Shown here: piece by piece, positions 25,681-55,134 of the stretch
Position numbering within the stretch: the first letter of the stretch is position 1
Layout: every line of letters starts with the position of its first letter
Source of the DNA: Diplocarpon mali
Taxonomy: Eukaryota; Ascomycota; Leotiomycetes; Helotiales; Drepanopezizaceae
Assembly: GCA_024741835.1 (NCBI GenBank)
Contig: JAENRP010000190.1
Span: forward strand, 19,020-83,019
Direction of reading: 5' to 3'
DNA: 64,000 bases
Made by a program: the position numbers and the translations under genes
The notes under the pieces: generated by a model
Database searches by the model: none
What the model saw: the letters and a program-made list of their open reading frames with translations, nothing else
Told to the model about the DNA's origin: nothing

Positions 25681-28600
25681 AATCAGGCTTTGGTCACAGA
25701 TGTTCGCTAATCTTGGAAATATGATCGGTGAGTTGGATTTTAGAAATGATTCATGAGAAGAGGCAAAAAGTAAAGTACCGTCGTGCTTACCTCTTGGCCC
25801 CGCTAGTGTCGCTTATCAAAAAGGGGTTGCACAAATCAAGCGACTAAGCAGCAACTCCCTGAATTTAGTAACCCAGTCCTGGGTAACATGTGAATAAAAT
25901 TTACTCAATACAAGATATAAGCACGATTGAGCTTGATTGCCGATGTGGTCTCTATGCTATATACTGCCACTAATCACTGGCCATTTTGATTTAGCACTCA
26001 TCACCCAGATGTGTGGCAAAAAACACCTCCTTATTATTAATATAGATATTCAGGACCATATGTTACAAGCCATTTAGCTGACTTCAAATCATGTAGCGGA
26101 GAGCTATGTCGGTTTATTTCCCAATCTCGCGCAGGTTGCTGCTCAACTTATCATCTAGTAAAGTCATAACATCTTGCCAAACTGTGAATTTCAGCACCAA
26201 GAATTATGATTACTTCCCTGAGAAAACTATTCTTACCAGCCACATTATCTTTAAACTTGATACAAAATCTAACTAGAATCTCATAGACGGCAATATTTAA
26301 TCGTCTATCTAATAGATAATCGGCCCATGGTCATCGTTTGGGGAAGAAAGGGGAGCTTTTGCTTTCTAATGCATTTGAATTTCTAATTCTCATCCGCGAT
26401 ATAAGTTATGAGGTTATAGGGGCCGCTTCTTCTCTTGATCGCTGATTTGGTCTCAGAAGTCTTATACTAAAAGAAAGGACAGAAGATACAGATGCACAAC
26501 GATTTATAACCTGTAAGTGAAGGTACATATTTCTGAACCAAATTGAAACAGTCACATACGACCATAGGCTGAGAAGAATTGAGCATACAGTCTGCTCTGC
26601 CATAATAAGCCTCGACTCGGCAGAGTGATAGTTGGGTGGGTGTCTACCAGCAAATACCTGCTGTTGTATGTTCCTAAAATTTTGGATCTCTGTACGATAG
26701 ATAGATAGGTAGGTTTTTCGTTTTCCTATGATGTTTCTTCCCCTAATAATATGCTATGTTATTTATAGACTATATATAATTAGCCTAAAGCGCTATGTTC
26801 TTATTAAGTATAAAGAGAATCTAGTGTAAAAACTCCTCAAATTTAGTAGTAAGCCCTTAATACTTATAGTGTAGATTCAGGAGAAAATTCAAGGCTCAGC
26901 GTGTGGGAAAGAACACCAGACTCGGCACTATAATTGAGATGGATGGCATAAGGCACAAAGCACTCAGATAGTTCAGAATGGAAGAAGAACTTGTATTATC
27001 TATATATGCTACGGTTGCTAGAGATTGGTTTCTCGAGAATGTAAGTGCGTTCGACTATTACTAACCCTTTTTGTTGACTTCAAATTTTGAAGAAGAAAAT
27101 ATTTAGAGTCAATATTCGAAGGCTATAAGGCTTCGAAATAGATTGTTTTGTTTTTTCCATTTCCTTAAAAACTATAAACTTCCATATTCTCTTTTCTGTT
27201 CATCATCAAGCCCTTCCCCTAGTTATAGGTATATACTTGAATACTGCAGTACGCAAGTCGAAGTTAGAGGGTATTTAGAAAAAGGCATTAGAAATTTTTA
27301 TTTAAAAGCGTTTGAAAATACTGAGCTTTATTCTACTAAAAGTTTTCTATTTCGGAGACGTAAGGACTAAATATTTGCTCTGCAGAGTTTATGAAAGAAT
27401 GCAAAGAATCTTTAGGCTCATAGGAGACACTGTGTATAGATATTGGGTGGATTTCTCCCATTATGTTATATTAATTAGACACTTTACAAGTATGTCTTTG
27501 TCCACGCGGTATATATATACATAGCGAAGGTTATAATTTTTGATGGGAGAATGCCGAATTTCTTATGGTTGAGATCTCTGTTTTAAATGGATTATACGAG
27601 TCTACCTTCCCTTGCCTCTGCCTTCGCCTAAGTCCCCTAAATTAATGCGCAATCGATATGTCAATCTATTAGAATCATTTAAGTCTACCATTATGCTTAC
27701 TACTTCCAAAAAAAAACGTAAGTAGTGGCATTGACTCTAGAATTCTTTACAAGGGTTTATTTACATATCAGTCAGACCCTCGTACCCCTTTTTACAAAAA
27801 TTCGTAAACAGTTCAAACAAAATCTGTTAATACAAGTTCTACTGATTACTTTATTAAGCCGCAGGAGTAGTGCTTTACTTACTTCGTCGCAGGCCAAACC
27901 ATTACCGCACTAGCATCATTCGCAAGGGAATTTAATATTGGTTTGCAAGGTCATATAAATCTCGTTTGGCCTACGATAGGGTACTTAGTAACCTGCGTGC
28001 GCGGGCAAGCGTTACTGTCCTACAGGCTTTAAAGTTACCAAATATAGAGCGTGCTCCTTTCTGGGTAGTTCTATGTTGGTATGACTGACTAAAGCCCTTA
28101 AGTTGCTGTAATCTATCACCCATTGAAAATGCTCTGTGTAGTTATGTTATTGACATTTCTATTGGAGGGTGGAGGACGATATTATATTCTTGTTCTGGAA
28201 TTGCTTACTGAGGTCGCGATGCCGCCGAAAGACGAGGACTTATTTAATATCTTAAAGAAACGTATTCTCCCACACACAGAGATCTTAGAGCAAATTCTTG
28301 GTTCTTACATCGTTATATATCGAAAAGGCCTCTAAATTTTGCCACGGCTGCTTTGACTTGCTTAGAAGACAGAAGCGCAGACCGCCCTATACAAAGAAGG
28401 CAGCAAAGCAAGTAAACTCGAGAGAAGCAGCTATCTTGCAACTTAAGGTGGCTAACATTAAATACCTATACGCTTGGGTCATAGAAGTGTACTGTTGAGA
28501 TAATCTTCGCTTACAATGCCTATAACTCACTCGGTTCAGGGGGTTCAGTAAAAGTCTCGCTTAAGGACTAAGGGAGATCATGGTACATAATTGAGGATAA

Positions 28601-49639: not shown

Positions 49640-50730
49640 CGCGAGTAGTAAGCCCCTGGAACCCCGCGCCAGCAGCTAATCGGCGCCCAATGATAGTTCC
49701 AATGAGCCCAGTCTGCCTCGAATGGAGAGACACAGAAGCTCCATGCTGAAGGAGCAACCAGATTGCCGTCTCGTTTATAATACTAGAATCTGTGAAATCT
49801 TGACTTAATCCGACTGGCGCGGCAAGGATATGCAGGGCATATTTGCCAGGGTGTTTGATCTTGTTTGAGTCTGCGCCTTTTTTAATCAGCGTCTTGAGTG
49901 CACCTGTGAGGTCGGCTTCTTGGGCAACGGTGCATAATAAGAGAGGTGTTATTTGTACATGGATTCAGGTTAGACCCAGAATCGTCCATTAGCGCGATCA
50001 GCTGATGTTGGTCAACATATTCGATGCCCTCGTGCTTGTCATTGAGCTCTGTAGATAATATCATCTTCTTCGTCACAGCGGCATGTAAGGTCTCCTGAAC
50101 AGCTGGTTGATCAAAAGTTGTTCTACTCACGAGCAGAGCCACCACCGCAAAGTTCCATCGCCGTGGAGCCCAGAGCAGCGCTTCTAACTTGCGACCAACG
50201 ATCGATCCCACAGGTCCATCAAATCTTCGACAACAGCAACATAACCATGAGTTGTCGCCACTACAAGGCACGTTCGCAAGGGCTTGACCCCAGCCGCATG
50301 GCTTTCCTGAGCACAAACCATCCAGAGGCGCTTGACGACATTATCTATGCCCTTTCTAAGCGGCAAATGCGATGGCCGCAAGCCTGTACTCGCCATGGCT
50401 CACGAGAAGAGGGTCCGCAGCAGCCGCGAGTAGCAGCTCCATGGCATTCAAATTGCCACACCAGGCGGAAAAGTGAATCGGTGGACCAGAACCCGGGTGG
50501 TTATAGTCGATGCCTGGCACAAGTAACCACTGAAGCGGTTGCTGCAGCTGCTTCATAGCGCTTTCGCGAATGCACGTATGTTCGCGAATGCACGTATGCA
50601 GTGCTTCTTCAGCAGTATCGATTAGTCTGGAAGCCGGCAATCCATCCCCTTGAACATCGCAAATATTGCGCGGCGGAGATGTGTCAGAGTGAGATTTCAG
50701 ACTTGCCTGTGACGGATGAATATACTTCAA
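49640..50730 (-). pseudogene. Ankyrin-repeat protein pseudogene
   Basis: Ankyrin-like units run down the minus strand: GPPIHFSAWCGNLNAMELLL (50.4 kb), TCLVVATTHGYVAVVEDLMD (50.25 kb), and ITPLLLCTVAQEADLTGALK followed by TLIKKGADSNKIKHPGKYAL (49.8-49.95 kb). ETAIWLLLQHGASVSLHS (49.7 kb) closes the series. The last two units are in a different frame from the preceding DDSGSNLN segment, so a frameshift lies near 49965, and the first two units are also in different frames. Fungal genomes carry many fast-evolving ankyrin genes, often beside repeats. No partner domain is seen. Confidence 0.6.
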
Positions 50731-52511
50731 GGGAGGGGAAAAGATTTTGTCTATATAAGCTACTTATGCCAAGACTTCACTAGCCTGTATACGCGTGACC
50801 TAGTCGTCAAATCAGTCACTACCCTGCGGTGGCCCCTAGACTAAAATCCCCCTGGGTTTCTTTTACTACTGGTAATAGTGATTAGCAGTTAGTAATCATC
50901 GCTTTGAGATATGTGAAGTATTCTAATGAAAAAAAGTATTTTACTGAAAGCAAATATAATATAGAGGATTCTTCAAGGATAACCCTCACCAAGAAGGTCC
51001 GGGAAAAGATTCAGGCCAAAAACCTAGTGTCTTCCATGGTAACGGACTTAAAAGAAAACTAATATAGGAGTCTATGTACAAGCTAATGCTACTACTGAGC
51101 GCCCCTTTAATAGATAAGAAATGTTAAGATAATACCTTTCTCCGAGAAAGAAGTAGGTGAGCGTGTCACGGGATGGGCAGTTACCGATTGTATGATTTGG
51201 GAGATCATGATCTCTGGTGCTGGTCCGGTCGAAGCGAAAATCCTCAATACTCAACTGCCAACGCCCAACAACTCCTTTGCTGAGCCTTGAAGTTAGCTAA
51301 TTTGGAACATATCCAATGTTCAAGGCCTTGTACGAGGTTGAATCAGTCCGACCTAAATGTTGATACTCCCGCTCGTACCATCGCCTGAAATTTCACAATC
51401 AAGCCAGGGAGCCTATTATAACTTTCTAAATCTCAGTGGCGGCCTACAGCCGCAAACTTCAAGAAAAGGTGTCTACCGGATTTTGACAAGATAGTCTGGG
51501 ATCTGAACGACGAGGAGTGGGAAAAGGTCCAGCCAGAGCTGCGACGAAGATCCACTATCCATCTTGTAGAGGCGTTGGCAAGCAAAGAGTTTGGCGGTCC
51601 TTCAAAATGGATTTCCCCTTGAGGCATCCTTTCCTTTAATAATAGTAAATAAAAACTTGATTTTTCTTAAAATTTATAAATTTCCAAAGCCGCGGAAGTA
51701 CGATTGGCGGAGGTTTACCTTGACTAAATGATGCATAGGGCATAAAATTTATAGCCACGCCTTTGGGTAAGTTTGAGGTTGCCTCGATATCAATATCAGA
51801 TTTCCTTTTCTCAAGAAAAAAAAAGCAAGCTCTCTTGCCAAGTACCATGGTTCTTTCTCGATCACGAAAAACAAGTTCCAAACTAACCCTGCTCTCAATT
51901 CGAACGCTTTCTTCCTGCCGCTGATTTACCAGGGGATTTCTGACTGCAAGGTCAGCCACTTGTACTCGCTTCGCACGGCGAAATTGTAGCGAGAAGGAAA
52001 GCCTACAACTTCCAAATCCTATCGGTGCTCGGCTCACAGGAAGGGTGAGATGGGGATGCAGGTATCTGTTCTAGCTGAGATGCAGTAGCGCGACGCGTCG
52101 AGGCCCCCAGGTGTAGGGTTGCAGAGCTTGGTGTTGACCTTGCTCGGTTGTTGTCAGATTCCTCGTTTGCAGTCTCTACATTAAGGCTGGCCTCGGAGTC
52201 TTCGTCTCAGTGATTCAGTTCTCGGCTGTAAGAACAAGAGCCTGCAGGTTTCCAAATCGCATATAGAACCGATGAAAGAGCTCCTGTCGGAGCCGTGAGA
52301 CTGCTGGGCCAGCTTGGCTCGGCCTAGCTTAGGGTTGAGTAGATACTCGACCAGTGATGCTGTCTCTTTAGGATTTGAGGACCAAAAGGTTAAATTTTGT
52401 AAGGAAAGAAGATGATGGTTACGCAGCAGCAGTATAATGTATGAACTCAATGGCTATATCCGAGCCAAACCGCGCAATCTCAAGTCGGAAGCGGAGATCT
52501 AAGTTTTTCTC
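50731..52511. other. Degraded DNA with one orphan coding segment
   Basis: AT-rich between 50.8 and 51.1 kb. Minus-strand ORFs at 51072-51254, 51636-52037 and 52181-52450 have no recognisable domain. The only segment with a good coding look is the plus-strand piece at about 51446-51630, listed separately. Confidence 0.4.
51446..51630 (+). pseudogene. Orphan C-terminal coding segment
   Basis: After a possible acceptor (CCTACAG) a plus-strand frame reads NFKKRCLPDFDKIVWDLNDE, then EWEKVQPELRRRSTIHLVEA and SKEFGGPSKWISP to a TGA. There is no start codon of its own. The amphipathic, Trp-containing peptide with varied codons looks like the end of a real protein whose upstream part is lost. Not recognised. 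Confidence 0.3.
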
Positions 52512-52535
52512 AAAAAAAAAAAAGCAAAAAAAAAA
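52512..52535 (-). terminator. Pol III poly-T terminator behind the tRNA-Pro gene
   Basis: On the minus strand the tRNA 3' end is followed within 14 bp by T10, GC, then T12 (runs of A at 52526-52535 and 52512-52523 on the plus strand). This is a strong RNA polymerase III termination signal in the correct place for the tRNA. Confidence 0.7.
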
Positions 52536-52548
52536 GTTTCAATAATTG

Positions 52549-52692
52549 GGGCGCATCCCGGGCTGAATTGTCATGTTAGGACATATTGAGCACACTTCTG
52601 GGAAGAGGATACTTACATTGAACCGGGGACCTCTCGCATGATATGTTTAGAGTGTACCCTAAGCGAGAATCATACCGCTAGACCAATGCACC
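52549..52692 (-). tRNA. tRNA-Pro(AGG), with an anticodon-loop intron and a spliceosomal-type insertion in the T-loop
   Basis: Read on the minus strand. The acceptor stem GGTGCAT (52692-52686) pairs fully with ATGCGCC (52556-52550; one G-T pair). The D-arm has A-box-like TGGTCTAGCGG. The anticodon stem CTCGC/GCGAG encloses TTAGGG...T with anticodon AGG, and an 18-nt intron sits at the canonical 37/38 position. The T-stem CCCGG (5' side) pairs with CCGGG (3' side), but the loop is split: TTCAAT, then 54 extra bases (52616-52563), then C. Removing the extra bases gives a perfect 7-nt T-loop TTCAATC and B-box GGTTCAATCCC. The structure is otherwise intact and followed by a poly-T terminator. As the insertion breaks the B-box in the DNA, Pol III output may be lost, so this may be a tRNA pseudogene or a gene with an unusual processing path. 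Confidence 0.85.
52563..52616 (-). other. 54-bp intron-like insertion inside the tRNA-Pro T-loop
   Basis: It starts GTAAGTATCC and ends GACAATTCAG, with CCTAACATGA about 12 nt before the end. This is a consensus fungal spliceosomal donor, branch point and acceptor at a size normal for this genome. Its precise removal restores a consensus T-loop and B-box. tRNA introns cut by the tRNA endonuclease lie in the anticodon loop and have no such signals. Confidence 0.75.
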
Positions 52693-55134
52693 AATCAACA
52701 TAAGCTTGGCGGCAAGGTGCTCATGTACAATATATATAGATGATTTCAATTGAGGTGAGCTTCCAACTAAGCCTCGGCTAGCTCAAGGCCCAAGCAGCCA
52801 GAAACCACGATATCAGTCCCGAGCATAGCGGGATATGTGGAAAGTACCGTGTCGATCTGACTTATGAAATCACCTCTACATCCAGATGGCCACAGCGGCC
52901 ACAGCGGGTATTTCCGACCATGGCAGGTATCTAGGTTTGTCGGTCAAGGTACCAAAGAAACAAGCAGCTTCCAAGTAACGCCTTGCAATTCGTGACAGTC
53001 TTACTAAACTCTGCATATACATCTTACCGCTTTTACCACTACTAACTTGCAAGGCTCCCTATCACAAGTCACCTGCTAGGCTACGTCTCAAAGAAGTGAG
53101 TTCATAAACTAACGAAATGTGTTTGACCCTTCCAGATAGCACTTCATTGGAAATACTATATAGAAACAATCATATCCTTCTCTGCGACTTACTTCAATCA
53201 CAGAGTGATGTGTGCTCACGTGACATTGCAGCCAAACTATTCAACTTCAAGCAGGCTCAGGCCTCGAGGCATTGCGTTAGGAGTGGGAGAGAACATAACA
53301 TTGGATACTTTCTAGCTGGCATTGAATACCTTCCGGCTGGGTACTCCCCCATCTGCATCCATGAATTGATTGCGCCATCTCTATTGAGCTTATTCTCGCT
53401 CACAACATCGTAGGCTTTGCGGTGAGCTGAGGCTACGGCTGAGAGAAAGGCCGATTCTTTGAAGATTTTTGGCGGAAATTTGAAGAGTTTGAAATAAAAG
53501 TACTGAAATTATACTCAGAGATTCAAGCTTTCGTTAGTCAAATTCAAGCTCCCGGCCCTCATTCGTGAACGTTGTAAATTCTTGGCTGCTCCGCCACTAC
53601 TTCCCCGGAATTCCTATCCATAATCTGTTCCGCACTAACCAACATCTCTGGTCTGGCAAGTTTACTACCACGCAACCTGGACGCCTCCATCGCTTACACA
53701 TGCGGAATCCGGAGCCCTATACGAGATACTTTCACCAGCTCTCCCGAGCTTCCGAACTCCACTCCTTCATAGAATTTCAAGGCCATATCACACCACACCA
53801 TCAGATATCGGCACAGCTCATCCGGGTGAGATTCAAGATACAAAGAGGACACCGTAGATTAATAACGGATGAACTCCTAGATTCGTATCCTGTAAGTACT
53901 CTTTCCTTCTAGAATGAGTTCTTACACAGCCCAAATCTACGACCTTACTATTTGGCTGCAGCACGGAGGCTTTTCAATTTTTAAATAGTCCGCCGAGAAA
54001 TTACAAACCACTAGAAGCGCCCACATATCGACCCATGGGAAAGATCGAGCCTTGCATGGTTTTCCTATTTGGCTTGGCATAATAACAGATTCTTCAATAA
54101 TAAGTCATCAATTTATCCTTGCGTTGTTCCTGGATCACGCGATCGACTGGGAAGCAATGAGATCATTGTTTATCAAGCTGGGATCTGTAATTAGACTTTG
54201 TAGAGAATATATTGTGTCCTGTATATGTAAGCTGGTACACAAATATACTGAATACATGTCCCAGGGCTTAAGCTTCGTGTTTGAAGGGGTGTTCACATGT
54301 TTATACAGATGTATCTTGCTTGTTAAGCTAGCTATTTTATAAGACTGAGGCAGGAGGAGAAGGGCTCTATAATCAATAGTATTCCAACATCTTTCATTAC
54401 CCCTTGCCTAGGAGATAATCCTGGATCTTCGTCTCATTTGTGAACAAAGTCTCGTTCCCTATTCAGGCCACCAGAACTTCGCAAGCACGCGATTGACCGC
54501 TCCGGAACATCAATGACGGTCACCTCCAGTGTCAAACACAAGTATTTACACGGTTTGCTTGCTCCTGGTTCGAGTTGTACAGGCCTAGCTCTTCGATGCT
54601 GGAATTTATCCGTGAAACGTGATTTTTATATTTATTATATTTATGGATAACAGCCCGAATCGCTTGTGTCCTGACCTGGCTTAACAAAATCAAAATCACC
54701 TGCCATCTTGAGACGTAAGGTGATGGAATCAGGATAGTAAGCCTCTAATGCTGTCAGATTGTGTAGAATGCTAGTAACTTGCTGTTACCGTGATATACAT
54801 AACGCTTACGAGTGGGACAAGCCAATTAAACGGCGCTTTGTTTTCACTCAGCATCTCGAAGCTTTGGCTTGAACGAAAATTGAGACAATTTCTATTCTGT
54901 CCAAGGAACCCATGCCTTCATTTTCATAAGCAGTATTAAGAATCCCTTTACATCTCGGAGCGCATTTGAGGTGGTTTTTCGGCAGGAATTGCGGGTCCCT
55001 CGCTTGGCATCAGCTAGCAACAGATTTCATCTGCCAAACCTGGGCACGACACGGATTTCCGCACCCCAGGAGTATATCCTACTGGCTTTTAACATCACGA
55101 CCGATGAGAACAAACGAGCGACATCTCACGTTAC
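52693..55134. other. Degraded DNA between the tRNA and the ferroportin-family gene
   Basis: Short plus-strand ORFs at 53117-53413, 53565-53912 and 54052-54342 have no motif, and other frames carry stops. AT-rich in 54.0-54.9 kb. The last 150 bp regain normal composition and should hold the promoter of the next gene. Confidence 0.45.

Follow-up and report, generated by a model that had tools for sequence, protein, structure and literature searches.

Candidate spliceosomal introns in tRNA genes of the apple-blotch fungus Diplocarpon mali

A split tRNA-Pro(AGG) gene and its paralogs

The window, a stretch of 64,000 nucleotides of Diplocarpon mali DNA, contains a tRNA-Pro(AGG) gene on the minus strand (52692-52549). 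The gene is divided into three exon pieces of 36, 22, and 14 nt. Its acceptor stem has 7 bp (GGTGCAT/ATGCGCC) and its T-stem is formed by CCCGG/CCGGG. For a patatin-like protein encoded in the window, 93% of the query aligns at 100% with a protein of Diplocarpon coronariae (Drepanopezizaceae, Helotiales, Leotiomycetes); a further match to D. coronariae is 99% over 95%, and the VPS62 of the window is 86% like that of D. rosae. The features of the tRNA locus are as follows.

52733..52738, minus strand: TATATA, 46 nt upstream of the tRNA; ordinary tRNA genes of this genome have similar upstream elements
52657..52692, minus strand: first exon piece, from the acceptor 5' strand to position 37, with the anticodon AGG at 52660-52658
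52673..52685, minus strand: A box TGGTCTAGCGGTA, intact in the pattern test
52639..52656, minus strand: 18-nt intron at 37/38, where tRNA-endonuclease introns normally lie, positioned as by ARAGORN in the C34 and C84 copies
52617..52638, minus strand: second exon piece, comprising the anticodon stem 3' strand, variable loop, T-stem 5' strand, and T-loop to position 59
52617..52624, minus strand: first part of the B box, GGTTCAAT, separated by the intron from the last bases of the box (pattern test)
52563..52616, minus strand: 54-nt intron of spliceosomal type in the T-loop, between positions 59 and 60, as in three paralogs
52611..52616, minus strand: 5' splice site GTAAGT of the T-loop intron
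52575..52579, minus strand: branch-like site CTAAC, whose A at 52576 is the proposed branch point, 13 nt ahead of the intron end
52563..52565, minus strand: 3' splice site CAG of the T-loop intron
52549..52562, minus strand: third exon piece, positions 60 to 73 (T-stem 3' strand, acceptor 3' strand, discriminator C)
52526..52535, minus strand: run of ten T, starting 14 nt past the tRNA end and resembling a Pol III terminator

The branch-like site of the T-loop intron lies in the context CCTAAC, and the intron ends with TTCAG. With the 54-nt insertion in place, neither ARAGORN nor Rfam cmscan detects a tRNA in the gene, and the B-box pattern has no intact match in its unspliced DNA. After removal of the insertion, ARAGORN reports a tRNA with ends exactly at 52692 and 52549. 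The program gives its anticodon as ATC, by a different placing of the 18-nt intron. The anticodon is read here as AGG because ARAGORN assigns Pro(AGG) to the C34 and C84 copies, with which the gene is identical; the exons flanking the 18-nt intron are the same in all three. The 54-mer occurs once in the window, and the unspliced strand folds approximately as its shuffled versions do (z -0.08).

The same tRNA body is present at three further loci of the genome, with the anticodon AGG on C34 and C84 and TGG on C210. All three tRNA-Pro(AGG) genes found and one of the two tRNA-Pro(TGG) genes have a GT..AG insertion at the same T-loop position, and in the three paralogs its length is 53, 55, and 56 nt. 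Over 72 nt the mature AGG sequences show no difference from one another, and the TGG gene departs from them in a single base, in the anticodon. The intron interiors of the four genes show no clear relationship to each other (z of 0.0 to 2.1 relative to shuffled sequences in six pairs). Intact T-loops are found in two other tRNA-Pro readings, L039 (CGG) and the differently built L024, which ARAGORN labels Ile and which is read here as tRNA-Pro TGG. Pattern, DNA-similarity, and covariance searches of the genome, which form an incomplete census, gave no uninterrupted tRNA-Pro(AGG) gene.

The original prediction described the T-loop of this tRNA-Pro as split by a spliceosomal-type intron. The description is upheld by the anatomy of the gene, the splice and branch-like signals, the restored tRNA, and the three paralogs interrupted at the same position. 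Its proposal that the gene requires two splicing machineries agrees with the presence of both the 18-nt intron at 37/38 and the T-loop intron. The proposed count of other tRNA-Pro(AGG) genes gives at least two more, and both of those found are interrupted. The T-loop insertion is more than a product of chance because three further Pro genes share its exact position and have unrelated interiors, and because 15 tRNA genes of nine other isotypes carry comparable insertions elsewhere.

The tRNA-Pro pattern was found in one stretch of the prokaryote contigs and in none of the viral contigs searched. The prokaryote stretch (L072, 4243-4315) is an uninterrupted tRNA-Pro(TGG) of eukaryotic type in a MAG record labelled Haloplasmataceae, and the contig is probably contaminating fungal DNA.

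Split tRNA genes and U6 in the genome

The searched genome consists of one assembly of 49.4 Mb in 676 contigs. At least 74 tRNA genes were found, of which at least 19, belonging to 10 isotypes, have a GT..AG insertion that lies outside the anticodon loop; ten insertion positions are represented. The 74 genes comprise 45 Rfam matches above the cut-off, three below it (L091, L092, and L093), L040, the four Pro genes, and 21 genes located by T-arm patterns. The census is a lower bound because 63 of 2443 candidates from the Rfam tRNA search were scored, and it is biased towards genes with an intact T-arm. Two doubtful genes were retained, L127 with an imperfect acceptor stem and the mitochondrial-looking L029. 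The Lys-like L094, the Ala-like L143, and L197, the 3' half of an Arg tRNA, are degenerate or truncated pieces and were left out.

The T-arm pattern GGGTTCRANYCCC matched 47 places, compared with 28 in the reversed control; 17 were already known and 30 were fetched. Pattern CGGTTCRANYCCG matched 30 places (15 in the control), 12 in loci already fetched and 18 new. For WGGTTCRANYCCW there were 90 places (77 in the control), 10 of them known; 40 of the 90 were newly read, and the places read gave one new tRNA, L193. The pattern GGTTCRANGTRNGY matched 96 places (42 in the control), and the 52 examined, two of them already known, contained the four Pro genes as their only tRNAs. Most of the remaining 44 have 14-mers that also occur in two repeat families. 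These dispersed AT-rich families, with GGTTCGAGGTACGT and GGTTCAAGGTAGGC, include L045, L048, and other GGTTCRANGTRNGY places, and are not tRNAs. When the DNA of 12 tRNAs served as the query, no candidate emerged, which shows no more than that the first step of such a search requires close similarity.

The split genes other than the four Pro genes are listed below, with intron positions numbered according to the author's reading of exon lengths.

Tyr: 52/53
Elongator Met: 46/47
Ala AGC: 15/16
Leu CAG and Leu TAG: in the D-loop after GGT
His, two genes: 12/13
Glu TTC: 12/13
Gly CCC: 9/10
Gly GCC, four genes: 13/14 in three, 8/9 in one
Asp: 64/65
Lys TTT: 8/9

The sole U6 snRNA gene found is also interrupted, by a 51-nt intron (ATGGC|GTGAGT..CTAAT..CAG|CCCTG). 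The genome search for 5S rRNA, which interrupted 5S genes could escape, gave 20 matches of 119-120 nt with no insertion. The lowest-scoring of them, at 44 bits (the others have 48.9 to 81.3), lies in the window at 26554-26672 on the plus strand and is perhaps a decayed copy.

The incomplete census contains no uninterrupted gene for His, Tyr, elongator Met, Gly(GCC), Leu(TAG), or nuclear Lys(TTT). Uninterrupted genes are present for Glu TTC, Ala AGC, Asp GTC, and Leu CAG and, by reading, for Pro TGG (L024). Filled and empty intron sites occur for the same anticodon within one genome (L025 and L125; L120, L122, and L163; L027, L028, and L092), and form a natural record of intron gain or loss. 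According to ARAGORN, anticodon introns are also present in tRNA-Asp and tRNA-Glu genes of this fungus (L115, L120, L121, and others).

Intron signals, boundaries, and promoter elements

All 20 introns, those of the 19 tRNA genes and of U6, begin with GT, end with AG, and are 48-65 nt long. Each carries the motif CTRAY with its A 9-14 nt from the 3' end, compared with 0.68 introns expected when interiors are shuffled; the 9-14-nt range was set after the data had been seen. The consensus of U2-type 5' splice sites is near GTRNGT. The 5' hexamers of the 20 introns are GTAAGT (8), GTACGT, GTAAGC, GTAAGA, GTGAGT, and GTTAGT (2 each), and GTACTT and GTATGT (1 each). Alignment to D. coronariae proteins delimited three host mRNA introns; these have lengths of 52, 46, and 46 nt, start with GTAGCA, GTAAGG, and GTAGGT, and have the A of CTRAY at 11, 10, and 9 nt from their ends. 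The sequence TTTT occurs in none of the 20 introns, compared with 3.2 expected by shuffling, and in one of the three host mRNA introns. This absence fits transcription by Pol III but is weak as a sign of it.

The introns do not form a sequence family. The 190 pairs of the 20 introns have a mean similarity score of 5.53, compared with 5.49 for shuffled sequences. The best pair, Pro C84 with Tyr, scores 12, a value expected about 0.1 times.

The effect of excision was determined with ARAGORN. With long introns allowed, the program found no tRNA in 15 of the 19 unspliced genes and mis-parsed the other four; spliced, all 19 gave a tRNA, 18 with the stated anticodon. The boundaries were also compared with references, using 2160 excisions per gene and no requirement for GT or AG. 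For Glu, Ala, Leu CAG, Lys TTT (compared with Lys CTT), and three Gly GCC genes, the reference was a near relative or a paralog with no interruption or a different one. The best set of excisions (one to three ties) held the GT-AG excision in seven of seven genes, with no mismatches in five, three in Leu CAG, and four in Lys. For Asp, the GT-AG excision was within the best set (three ties) with a 24-nt reference and outside it with a 30-nt reference extending into the flank. Exact removal was thereby compared with empty-site references in eight split genes, Asp included. In a scan of ARAGORN scores over excisions within 12 nt of the proposed ends, covering 18 genes (Asp was left out because its sequence piece began within the gene), the GT-AG excision was best or tied in 12. 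Different excisions score higher in elongator Met, Ala, Leu CAG, His C203, Glu, and Leu TAG because loop lengths may vary.

Upstream TATA-like elements are alike in split and ordinary genes, with a perfect TATAWA in 6 of 17 split and 10 of 33 ordinary genes scored. A T-run starts at most 30 nt past the 3' end in 15 of the 19 split genes; it begins at 54 nt in Ala and 59 nt in Asp, and none was seen in the 30 nt after either His gene. In the pattern test, the four Pro genes keep the A box and have a broken B box, ten of the 19 genes have a broken A box and keep the B box, and elongator Met, Leu TAG, and Asp keep both. The A-box pattern misses Tyr and Leu CAG even when they are spliced, and the B-box match of Tyr is regained at the intron end. 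Introns break the A box in ten genes and the B box in the four Pro genes; therefore, transcription might be weak. Three tRNA-Ala(AGC) genes, split and unsplit alike, are closely followed by a second B-box hairpin that resembles a T-arm, CGGTTCRATTCCG, and is perhaps an extra promoter element. The hairpin was found at the following places.

C75:25767-25779, in the 3' flank of L092
C75:130438-130450
C5:357588-357600

Interpretation and comparison with known systems

The DNA sequence makes it very probable that the T-loop insertion of the window gene is a short U2-type spliceosomal intron within a working tRNA gene transcribed by Pol III. The same reading appears to explain best the split tRNA genes of the apple-blotch fungus, at least 19 in 10 isotypes, as well as its U6 gene. 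Mature parts are identical in the three Pro(AGG) genes, the four Gly(GCC) genes, which have introns at two positions, and the two His genes, and the same-position introns of these identical-bodied genes are mutually unrelated. Identical mature parts around unrelated introns point to working genes under constraint, or to homogenisation of exons.

It is possible, yet very improbable, that the split genes are dead as a result of insertions or recent intron gains and that the organism relies on other, uninterrupted genes. Passages of Yoshihisa (2014, PMC4090602) treat D- and T-arm insertions in eukaryotic tRNA genes as mostly pseudogenes, nucleomorphs excepted. Furthermore, the uninterrupted genes for Glu TTC, Ala AGC, Asp GTC, and Leu CAG, and the single Pro TGG, would fit this explanation; the split copies of Glu, Ala, Asp, and Leu CAG, whose anticodons are also served by an uninterrupted gene, could therefore be dispensable. 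However, mature parts are identical where the introns share no detectable similarity, splice and branch signals are kept in 20 of 20 introns, and seven tRNAs, Pro(AGG) and nuclear Lys(TTT) among them, have no uninterrupted gene in the incomplete census. The dead gene offered by the original prediction as one outcome is disfavoured by mature parts that are identical except for one anticodon base and by the lack of any uninterrupted Pro(AGG) gene among those found. A single recent gain does not fit four Pro genes with unrelated interiors, nor the involvement of at least 10 isotypes and U6.

Introner elements give rise to many introns at new sites, and the many introns at many positions, all of 48-65 nt, could indicate one mobile family that spread into tRNA genes. 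This explanation is extremely improbable, as the 190 pairs score like shuffled sequences; the introner-like copy envisaged for the window intron was contradicted by a genome search that found no other copy of it. Removal by the tRNA endonuclease at bulge-helix-bulge motifs, in the archaeal or nucleomorph manner, has just as little probability. Parts of Yoshihisa (2014, PMC4090602) describe archaeal enzymes that cut introns at odd tRNA positions and nucleomorph tRNAs with introns of 3-24 nt in the D and T arms, and both offer precedents. The endonuclease would leave GT, CTRAY, and AG unexplained. In this motif, a 4-bp helix separates two 3-nt bulges located at the splice sites; a 4-bp helix in the expected geometry was found in none of the 20 introns (3 bp in four), and in the alternative geometry in one (Ala). 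A group I or group II self-splicing intron was rejected. Such introns have a catalytic core and are longer than 48-65 nt, and Rfam gave no match, including no self-splicing intron, in window positions 50000-55000 with E up to 1.

The split genes could also be transcribed by Pol II, alone or within longer transcripts, spliced in the ordinary way, and then cut into tRNAs. Spliceosomes normally act on Pol II RNA, and by the author's patterns the A or B box is broken in 14 of the 19 genes. This route is nonetheless improbable: the TATA-like elements resemble those of ordinary tRNA genes, T-runs follow closely downstream, the introns lack TTTT, and U6, a Pol III RNA, provides a precedent, although these signs do not settle the polymerase.

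For a working gene with a spliceosomal intron, we infer Pol III as the polymerase, the removal of the intron, the order of removal, and the spliceosome as the agent. Pol III would transcribe the entire split gene, and the spliceosome would excise the T-loop intron and, generally, the introns of 48-65 nt. The T-arm could fold once the T-loop intron is out, and RNase P, RNase Z, and the tRNA endonuclease and ligase, acting on the 18-nt intron at 37/38, would finish the tRNA. The spliceosome step would come first because formation of the D or T arm requires prior loss of the intron.

Many tRNA genes contain introns of the mRNA type; therefore, the mRNA-splicing machine is probably needed for some tRNAs. 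It is likely that the spliceosome acts as a required tRNA-maturation machine in this fungus, and perhaps more widely in Leotiomycetes, with essential tRNAs encoded only by split genes, Pol III transcripts as routine substrates, and many independent intron gains. Candidates for essential tRNAs with split genes only are His, Tyr, elongator Met, Gly-GCC, Pro-AGG, and Leu-TAG. If this is true, a living fungus couples its tRNA supply to mRNA splicing, Pol III RNA is a regular spliceosome substrate, and there is a large exception to the rule that places nuclear tRNA introns in the anticodon loop and assigns them to the tRNA endonuclease. As tRNA genes have well-known sequences and many copies, they would provide an unusually clean record of intron gain, with filled and empty sites in one genome for Glu TTC, Ala, and Asp, and two different positions in Gly GCC. 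Most of the split genes escape ordinary tRNA annotation.

No prior report of spliceosomal introns in tRNA genes was found in the literature searched, which included no preprints and few subscription journals, where one may exist. Spliceosomal introns occur in nuclear rRNA genes of fungi, reportedly including the 18S rDNA of deuteromycetes in a 1993 study cited in PMC11782384. The introns described here are similarly of the mRNA type within non-coding RNA genes, but rRNA is made by Pol I and that case involves no tRNA. Unlike introners, they include no family of similar sequences. They share positions in the D-arm, variable loop, and T-arm with the non-canonical tRNA introns of archaea and nucleomorphs described in parts of PMC4090602. 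In contrast to those endonuclease-type introns, of 3-24 nt in nucleomorphs, they have the structure GT..CTRAY..AG, a length of 48-65 nt, and no bulge-helix-bulge in the expected geometry. According to passages of Canzler et al. (2017, PMC5832005), no small structured RNAs other than fungal U3 and U6 are known to carry introns often; these are described as short GT-AG introns with a branch site that were gained many times in fungi; U3 introns are 98.54% GT-AG and 92 nt long on average. The introns of Diplocarpon mali resemble them in being short GT-AG introns with a branch site in small structured RNAs, and U6 of this fungus has one. The hosts differ, being 19 tRNA genes of ten isotypes, many of which also carry an endonuclease intron.
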